Positions 39,391 through 42,141 of a stretch of 64,000 bases of DNA are shown here, piece by piece (the stretch's first letter is position 1; the number at the start of each line of letters is the position of its first letter). The notes beneath the pieces were generated by a model. The model was not told the DNA's origin. It did no database searches and saw only the letters and a list, made by a program, of their open reading frames with translations. Source of the DNA: an uncultured Geobacteraceae bacterium (lineage in GTDB: Bacteria > Desulfobacterota > Desulfuromonadia > Geobacterales > Pseudopelobacteraceae); NCBI GenBank assembly GCA_903925005.1, contig CAIYDX010000219.1, positions 1 through 64,000 on the forward strand, in the 5' to 3' direction. A program made the translations under genes and the position numbers.

Positions 39391-42141
39391 TCACTCCCGT
39401 TTTCCCCACACGCTCAGCAGTGCCGGTAAAAAAGCCATAAAGACCGCCACGCTGGCGAACATGCCGAGCGACATGACCGCTCCGATGCTGAAAACTCCCT
39501 GGTGGTGCGCCACCATCAAAGCGCCGAAGCTGAAGAGGATCGTCAGGGCGTTCAGGAATACCCCGATTCCGGCGCTGCTCATGGCTACCTGCGGAGGCGT
39601 TTCGTTCCCCAGACGATACCGGTTGATGATATAGATGGCCGAGTCGATCCCCACCCCTAGTATCAGCGGCAGGACAATAATGTTGGCTGAGTTGAAGCTG
39701 ATCCCGGCCAGCCACATCCCCCCCACCATCAGCAGCAGACCGGCGGCCAGCGGCAGCGCACCGATCAGCGCAAAGCGGATGCTTTTGAAGTTGATCAGCA
39801 GGATCGCGGCGATGCCTATGAAAGCGTAACCGAAAGCTCGCAGGTAGGAATCACGCAGAATGGTCAACGACTCATAGACCATTACCGGTTCTCCGGTTGC
39901 ATGCGGAACTACCCCCTGAACCTGTTTGACAAACTCCTCCAGCGGTTCATGCTCGAAGATCTCTTTTTTAGCAGCCACCTGCAGCAGCAGTTTGCCGCTC
40001 TTGCCTACAAAGCGTTGTATCAGTTGTTCCGGTACATCGGCCTCGCTGACTCGTGACGCCTCAAGGCTCTCTTTCATCATGCGCAGTTTGTCGGGGAGTT
40101 CGGCAAACATCTCCCCTTGAAATTCACGTAGCATTCCCAGAGCGTTCTTATCCTTTTCTTTTTCCAGAGTTTTGAAAAAGCTGTCCAGAGTCGTCAGAAA
40201 GGCGGCAATTTGTAGAGCTTCCGGAGCTTTTCGAGTTTCCAGCGATTTTTTGAGCATCTCCACCCGATTACGGAAATTTTCAAAGACAGCCGGAAGGGCC
40301 ATGACCTGCATATTTTCTTCATAAGGGACCGGTTTGACCTCAGCCATGATCTGTTTCAGCGATGCCAGTTCCGCCAGCTTTGCCTCCTGCTGATCCGGAA
40401 CCAGGGCCGGCAGGTTGACTACATGATCCACGGCCGGCAGCCTTTCGAGCCGTTCAGTCAGCTGACCGGCTTCCGCCCTGTCGCGAGCGGTTACAACGGC
40501 AAAGTAACCGGAGTTCTCCTTACTGCGCATCAGTTTGTAGGCGTACGTTACCGACTGCAACCCCTTCGCTTGCAGATTCATCAGATTATAGTCGAAGCGC
40601 ATCGACAGGGCAGGGTAGAGGCAGATCAGTGACAGAGCGAGTGTTGCTGCAATGACGGTCCGAGGCTTTCCGAAGAGGGTGTAAATAAAAGTACCGCAAT
40701 CTACCCCATCCCCACCCTTACCTTCCCCTTGAAAGGGAGGGGGAAAGTCAAGATCTATTAAGTTGTTAGTCCCTTCCCCTTCAAGGGGAAGGTAAGGATG
40801 GGGTGATGGTGCATGTTTCTTGAATTGTTCCAGCAGTATCAGCATGGCCGGCAACACGGTAAAGGTAGCGATGACGCAGATAACGACCCCACCGGCGGCG
40901 ATGATGCCGAGTTCGGCAATACCCTTGAAGTCGGTGAAAGCAAAGGTGGCAAAGGCCAATGCCACGGTGGCGGCGGCCATAATAATCGAACGGATATTGG
41001 TGGAGAGACCGGTTTCGATCGCATCCATGCCGCATGCGCCTCGCTTCAGTTCCTCCTGATAGCGGAGCACAACCTGGATGCCATACTCGATCCCCAGGCC
41101 GATCAGCATGATAGCGAAGACCATCGACAGGATATTTAGATGTCCGACGGCAGCGGTGGCGAAGCCGAACGAAAGGCAGATTCCGACGATCAGCGAGACC
41201 ATCGCGGCAATCACGTTCAGCAAACCGCGAAAGGCGAACAGTAGCAGTATAACAGTCAGCGTCAAAGAGAGAATGGTGGCAATTTCCAGGTCGTGCTTGC
41301 TGGTGGCCATCTCTTCGTATTCTAGGACCGGCACGCCGGTCAATCCTCCGGTAACCCCCTTAAACTCCGGTTTTTTCAGGATTTCGTCCAGCGCCGCGCG
41401 GGCAGCCTTGATCGACTTTTCCGAGGCGACAAAGCTCCCCTCATCCTTGACCGGCAGCATGGTAATTACCTGCTGTTTACCGGCGTTCTCCAACATGGAT
41501 GGTTTGCCATCACCGCCGCCTTTCAGGAACGAATCCATCGACAAGCCGCTTGTTTTGCCGTCAAAGGCCTTGAAACCCTTGTCCAGCGTGGTCAGCATGA
41601 AGGTGATGCTTTGTAGAGACGCATGATCATGCGTCTCTACGGAAGACGCCAAATAACTGTCGATTTGACCGGTCAGGCTAGTAAAGAGCGTTTGCACAGA
41701 AGGCGCGGCGGCCAAATCTTTCAATACCGGCGCCGCCATTGTCAAGGTTTTACGCAAATTTTTAATGTCGTCAAGTGGCATGAACAAAAGGCCGTTGGTA
41801 CGGAAGTAGGGGAGGCCGCCGGGGTAGAAAACATCCCTGAATAATCCTCGCTCCTTGTTCAGGGTTGCGTACAGTGCATCAGCAGCCTTGGTTGATTTAG
41901 CCGCGTCTTCTGACTCTATCACCGCGACAATCTCTTCCTGATCACCGAATTCGGCGCGATAGGCACGGTAATCGACCTGGAAGGCGGTGTTACTCGGCAT
42001 AAGATCGTCGCGACCTGTCAAAAACGTCATGTTCCTGACCGTGTAGGCAACTGAGATGGCTGAAAATAACAGGGCAAACATCAGAATCGAACGGGGATGT
42101 TTCGATATGAAAGCGAACAGACGGCTATGTTTGTTGGACAC
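39391..42141 (-). CDS. MMPL/RND family transporter
   Basis: 916 aa; two RND-like halves with GLGIEYGIQV and GVGIDSAIYIINRY motifs. Confidence 0.92.
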   Translation of the reverse strand: MSNKHSRLFAFISKHPRSILMFALLFSAISVAYTVRNMTFLTGRDDLMPSNTAFQVDYRAYRAEFGDQEEIVAVIESEDAAKSTKAADALYATLNKERGLFRDVFYPGGLPYFRTNGLLFMPLDDIKNLRKTLTMAAPVLKDLAAAPSVQTLFTSLTGQIDSYLASSVETHDHASLQSITFMLTTLDKGFKAFDGKTSGLSMDSFLKGGGDGKPSMLENAGKQQVITMLPVKDEGSFVASEKSIKAARAALDEILKKPEFKGVTGGLTGVPVLEYEEMATSKHDLEIATILSLTLTVILLLFAFRGLLNVIAAMVSLIVGICLSFGFATAAVGHLNILSMVFAIMLIGLGIEYGIQVVLRYQEELKRGACGMDAIETGLSTNIRSIIMAAATVALAFATFAFTDFKGIAELGIIAAGGVVICVIATFTVLPAMLILLEQFKKHAPSPHPYLPLEGEGTNNLIDLDFPPPFQGEGKGGDGVDCGTFIYTLFGKPRTVIAATLALSLICLYPALSMRFDYNLMNLQAKGLQSVTYAYKLMRSKENSGYFAVVTARDRAEAGQLTERLERLPAVDHVVNLPALVPDQQEAKLAELASLKQIMAEVKPVPYEENMQVMALPAVFENFRNRVEMLKKSLETRKAPEALQIAAFLTTLDSFFKTLEKEKDKNALGMLREFQGEMFAELPDKLRMMKESLEASRVSEADVPEQLIQRFVGKSGKLLLQVAAKKEIFEHEPLEEFVKQVQGVVPHATGEPVMVYESLTILRDSYLRAFGYAFIGIAAILLINFKSIRFALIGALPLAAGLLLMVGGMWLAGISFNSANIIVLPLILGVGIDSAIYIINRYRLGNETPPQVAMSSAGIGVFLNALTILFSFGALMVAHHQGVFSIGAVMSLGMFASVAVFMAFLPALLSVWGKRE
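40704..40804. repeat. Imperfect palindromic interspersed-type element inside the MMPL CDS
   Basis: CTTACCTTCCCCTTGAA (40717-40733) and its exact reverse complement TTCAAGGGGAAGGTAAG (40780-40796), flanked by CCCCATCC / GGATGGGG. Confidence 0.85.
41613..41640. repeat. Perfect 28-bp palindrome inside the MMPL CDS
   Basis: GTAGAGACGCATGATCATGCGTCTCTAC equals its own reverse complement. Confidence 0.95.

Follow-up and report, generated by a model that had tools for sequence, protein, structure and literature searches.

Rickettsia and scattered REPs provide the best-known cases of selfish DNA lying in frame within proteins. The Rickettsia palindromic elements (RPEs; Ogata et al. 2000), as summarized in PMC10969869, are multi-copy palindromes of about 100-150 bp, many of which lie in frame within unrelated genes and encode a shared peptide. 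Intragenic GTAG/CGTC REPs (Di Nocera et al. 2013, PMC3733652) are hairpins of 20-40 nt, often arranged as head-to-head dimers, and are found in uvrA, uvrB and DNA polymerase I genes, and recB carries one at nearly the same site in two Xanthomonas species; Geobacter is not mentioned in that paper. Two further systems deserve comparison, namely the REPINs with their RAYT transposases (PMC3116915) and, as cited in PMC10969869, the Chunjie MITE of about 235 bp from Geobacter uraniireducens.

The window analyzed here, a stretch of 64,000 nucleotides from an uncultured Geobacteraceae bacterium (contig CAIYDX010000219.1 of GCA_903925005.1), harbors in its hpnN gene one copy of a dispersed, non-coding palindrome, designated R1 (Table 1), whose mobility we infer from its dispersed copies and from filled and empty sites in orthologs. 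R1 resembles the RPEs in being a multi-copy palindrome, in frame in unrelated genes with a shared peptide frame, and differs from them in taxon (Geobacteraceae/Desulfobacterota), in being built from two 39-nt C-rich hairpins, which sets it apart by description, and in that differing families occupy one codon position in different species. With the GTAG/CGTC REPs, R1 shares short hairpin units, often in head-to-head dimers among 127 elements, as well as residence in uvrA, uvrB and polA; in contrast to them, its 30-unit consensus contains no conserved GTAG or CGTC tetranucleotide, its reading frame is nearly fixed, and several families are found at one site within one genus. By their definition, R1 falls outside the GTAG/CGTC superfamilies. 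Like a REPIN, it has a spacer of variable sequence or length between two REP-like units in inverted orientation, but no RAYT adjoined any R1 copy tested, so a REP affinity in the strict sense, whether by superfamily or by RAYT, did not hold up. The terminal inverted repeats (ACCCCATCC...GGATGGGGT ends) and dispersed copies recall MITEs such as Chunjie, whose host is a relative; unlike DDE-type MITEs, R1 lacks a target duplication, and Chunjie, in the account cited above, is not described as a protein-coding insert, again a distinction by description. By analogy, R1 would work like RPEs and intragenic REPs, as a known kind that differs in details. In open-access papers we found no description of the R1 family (a peptide-motif search gave nothing relevant) or of several families at one gene position in one genus.

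Table 1. Features of the R1 element and its host gene, in window coordinates
Feature	Position	Strand	Support or remark
hpnN (hopanoid-associated RND/MMPL transporter, 916 aa, element host)	39391..42141	-	ORF; TIGR03480; PF03176; aligned to solved HpnN 6wu0/5khn
Whole palindromic element, head-to-head unit pair, about 100 bp	40703..40805		codes on the minus strand for hpnN residues 446-480
Unit 1, 39 nt, C-rich tail and inner hairpin	40703..40741	+	R1 covariance model 62.4 bits, E 2.4e-12
Unit 2, inverted, 33 nt	40772..40804	-	R1 covariance model 45.9 bits, E 3.7e-8
Spacer separating units 1 and 2	40742..40771		
Unit 1 inner imperfect hairpin (CCTTCCCCTTGAAAGGGAGGG)	40721..40741	+	stem covaries across 30 units
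Unit 2 inner perfect hairpin (CCTTCCCCTTGAAGGGGAAGG on minus strand)	40772..40792	-	stem covariation

The original prediction of an inverted repeat of about 100 bp within the coding sequence was borne out, with arms of 33 nt each (40710-40742 and 40771-40803) that are 91% complementary and separated by 28 nt, and with an exact 17-mer pair, CTTACCTTCCCCTTGAA at 40716-40732 and its reverse complement at 40780-40796. Single-strand folding exceeded that of dinucleotide shuffles, with z-scores of -4.9 as DNA and -5.7 as RNA and none of 200 shuffles equal to it. In general, R1 is a pair of inverted 39-nt units (ACCCCATCCCCaCCCTnACCCTCCCCTTGAAGGGGAGGG), each with a C-rich tail and an inner hairpin, and the units fall into three subtypes set apart by compensatory stem changes. 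Across 30 units, the inner stem displayed 23 double-changed cells, a value matched by 0 of 500 shuffles, and sliding the pairing partner abolished the signal; given these compensatory changes, selection or copying seems to act on the hairpin itself as a structure. Relative to subtype C units (ACCCCATCCCCATCCTAACC...), the tail of unit 2 has apparently undergone a frame-keeping loss of 6 nt. Searching Rfam with R1 yielded no match at gathering score, and the sub-threshold matches to miRNA-type hairpins were judged to be chance.

The host had been recognized as an MMPL transporter, and its product indeed scores 818 bits with TIGR03480, above the curated cut-off of 752. Its 916-codon frame is continuous through the palindrome, as had been claimed, reading HPYLPLEGEGTNN...PPPFQGEGKGGDG; this mirrored peptide, placed between TM regions by the original prediction, lies in the cytosolic linker from TM6 to TM7, which has about 13 residues in solved HpnN. 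In the AlphaFold2 model of hpnN (overall pLDDT 82), values below 50 are confined to the N-terminus and residues 445-482, the latter being the sole such internal stretch, and this predicted loop most likely leaves transport intact. Among hpnN orthologs the linker is variable, with simple-repeat-like linkers at that place in other genera. The proposed alignment with orthologs succeeded in part, as the segment is absent from most of them, while no exact empty site for R1 was found because linkers evolve too fast for a clean cut. Ortholog linkers without the element and its position in a variable linker further support the proposed likeness to gene-inserted, read-through REPs or RPEs, already supported by multiple copies in frame in unrelated genes with one peptide frame.

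Copies elsewhere in the genome had also been anticipated, and the R1 covariance model detected 19 unit matches at about 11 sites, so the element is not single-copy; together with the lack of the segment in most orthologs, this defeats both refutations that the original prediction had foreseen. One extra weak match (C235) belongs to another palindrome family, F, of which the same genome (G000) carries at least six copies (C11, C22, C69, C116, C223 and C235), nearly all outside long frames. R1 was present in 30 of 58 related genomes, with a maximum of 67 units in one genome, and patchily across the phylum (11 of 198 genomes). We fetched 102 loci with 127 elements, some genomes being sampled in part only; 37 elements were arranged -+, 35 +-, 52 were single and 3 triple. 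Outside Geobacterales, 19 of 22 sampled copies were intergenic, and the gene-internal share there did not differ significantly from the 44 of 127 described below (p 0.08). For families F and D, 2 of 18 sampled copies were in genes, with F copies rarely so.

To call an element gene-internal, we required that it lie in a frame of 200 aa or more that is free of stops, with 40 aa flanking it on either side. This was satisfied by 48 elements, and exclusion of four without any family left 44 in 27 gene classes, most of whose host ORFs are backed by family matches and the rest by flanking sequence shared with those searched. The genome of the window contributes seven in-frame hosts (hpnN, uvrA, uvrB, polA, thiL, cobB and murE), with all seven products exceeding curated family cut-offs and the six besides hpnN serving in DNA repair, cell wall and vitamin synthesis; relatives add murB, murG, an msbA-like ABC transporter, cbiD, cheA, a FabA-type synthase, a P-type ATPase and several restriction-modification genes. 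The last recur as hosts (HsdM, Mod, Res, MmeI and Eco57I-type; L264, L265, L267, L284, L287, L294, L296, L298, L382 and L426), including one methylase gene with two elements (L382). A unit has one stop-closed and two open frames in the forward direction and three open frames in reverse. Gene-internal forward units were read in frame 2 in 29 of 34 cases, in frame 3 in five and in the stop-containing frame 1 in none, and frame 2 also accounted for 32 of 36 reverse units (32/3/1). Counted by gene class, the ratios were 20:2 forward and 21:2:1 reverse, differing from equal use of the open frames with p 1e-4 and 6e-8, respectively, values that are approximate since related species are non-independent through shared ancestry. 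The frame 2 peptide (PHPHPNPPLEGEG / PPLQGEGQGGDG) is soluble, acidic and of Pro/Gly character vs. hydrophobic or basic peptides in the other frames, and this dominant frame reads PHPHPNPPLEGEG...PPLQGEGRGGDG in nearly all gene-internal copies. In addition, the two-unit length was divisible by 3 in 18 of 22 gene-internal elements vs. 19 of 50 others (p 8e-4, likewise approximate), and removal would open a long frame in only 4 of 69 testable copies of the non-genic class. Together, the frame bias, the multiple-of-three lengths and the paucity of gene-breaking copies suggest purifying selection on gene-internal R1 at the protein level. In the four exceptions (L238:1988-2081, L296:3383-3505, L298:1393-1508 and L234:1984-2095), removal leaves a frame of 370-630 codons; these insertions may disrupt genes, or the frames may be spurious. 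As for position, residues 428 and 429 of solved UvrB (9gy7) exactly flank the UvrB insert, and the MurG insert separates the N- and C-terminal halves in the alignment. An AlphaFold2 model of UvrB was dropped as poor, with a shallow alignment.

The uvrB linker, between ..RPVTA and GQVDDL, measures 11-13 aa in 16 of 30 genomes, and in others it is filled, always in frame, by R1 (the genome of the window), family B (L329, L330, L334 and probably L336), C (L331, L333), D (L332) or F (L335). Hence one codon position accommodates at least five dispersed palindrome families across species and is empty in many others; families B, C, D and F are each dispersed and multi-copy in the genomes examined. 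On a partly resolved uvrB DNA tree, at least 7 changes of presence and at least 10 of family are required, and within clades of strong support some sites are filled and others empty, with different families side by side (B, C, empty). The hpnN linker holds R1 +- in the window and R1 -+ in L044, whereas L043 and L057 have family F there; at least five gains are required, and in a distant genus the linker holds another palindrome (L063 and L065, folding z -3.7 and -4.5). The latter, GTGAGGAGTAAGGGG...CTCACTCCTCAC, also occurs at L127. In an MmeI-like gene, a single place is occupied by R1 in L284 and by F in L426.

We consider it very probable that R1 is a dispersed mobile palindrome tolerated in frame in flexible linkers, with hpnN transport likely left intact. 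We surmise that R1 spreads as a non-autonomous DNA hairpin, presumably moved in trans by an enzyme, and that most insertions within genes would be lethal or lost; the insertions that persist would be those in flexible linkers where translation of the palindrome gives a soluble loop rich in Pro, Gly and Glu, and the few permissive linkers might be filled repeatedly by the palindrome family active in each lineage. Survival of translatable soluble loops would account for the single peptide frame, the multiple-of-three lengths and the refilled linkers. On translation, the gene-internal element apparently adds a floppy loop to the protein. The host genes may be impaired by their inserts. An origin of the linker by slippage or C/G-rich drift, with a fortuitous palindrome, might be suggested by the variability and simple-repeat-like character of hpnN linkers in other genera, but it is refuted by multi-copy homology, with 39-nt units at 60+ bits common to unrelated genes and genomes, and has next to no probability in view of the stem covariation and shuffle z-scores. 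Scarcely more credible is an artefact of assembly or binning. Many of the genomes are MAGs, from which the inserts in relatives mostly come, and the assembly of the window comprises 419 contigs with 6% contamination; however, independent assemblies show inserts at identical gene sites, R1 units adjoin hpnN in the isolate Geomesophilobacter sediminis (L124), and the isolate Geobacter argillaceus (L127) carries a different palindrome in its hpnN linker.

More pertinent is whether certain sites are preferred as DNA, through a target sequence or palindrome-swapping gene conversion, beyond what protein tolerance would yield. The uvrB position shared by R1, B, C, D and F, the number of changes on its tree with supported clades mixed, the repetition of this pattern in hpnN and MmeI, and a T/A bias at flank positions -1 to -3 all speak for such hot spots, which we regard as possible though doubtful, given that no target motif common to uvrB, hpnN and MmeI was seen, that the sites coincide with interdomain or inter-TM linkers as tolerance alone predicts, and that the uvrB tree is resolved in part only. 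For the refilled linkers, we favor tolerance with recurrent hits over targeting. That the loops are retained since they modify host proteins, e.g. in repair activity, a role also speculated on for intragenic REPs, is improbable; repair and replication hosts recur (uvrA, uvrB, polA), as for other REPs (PMC3733652), but host functions are mixed (murB/E/G, thiL, cobB, cbiD, hpnN, methylases), sites are empty in many species, peptides at one site differ by family, and several shorter uvrB inserts, including L337-L339, resemble and possibly represent decay.

R1 extends in-frame selfish DNA to free-living bacteria with larger genomes, in numbers of copies and relatives that suffice to test tolerance vs. 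targeting vs. use, and the uvrB site, with at least five families in one genus, amounts to a natural replicate experiment. We also offer, as a speculation that we think rather unlikely, that a few interdomain linker codons in core genes (uvrB, hpnN and MmeI) genuinely serve as sites of repeated landing or exchange, where unrelated families replace each other in frame during speciation; if so, a selfish DNA population would steadily supply and rewrite Geobacteraceae protein linkers. For annotation, PHPHPNPPLEGEG-type peptides should be taken as translated repeats and not as domains.

With respect to mobility, no R1 unit lay within about 1.5 kb of Y1_Tnp at the 50 loci tested, a subset of the Y1 genes, and Y1_Tnp is present in genomes both with and without R1. 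In the flanks of the 35 +- elements, direct repeats of 4-9 nt were not in excess; this missing target duplication would agree with transposition as a single-stranded hairpin, as in the REP/IS200 type. The T/A bias noted above lies just outside the ends of the +- elements and could mean either that the terminus extends farther or that certain targets are weakly preferred.
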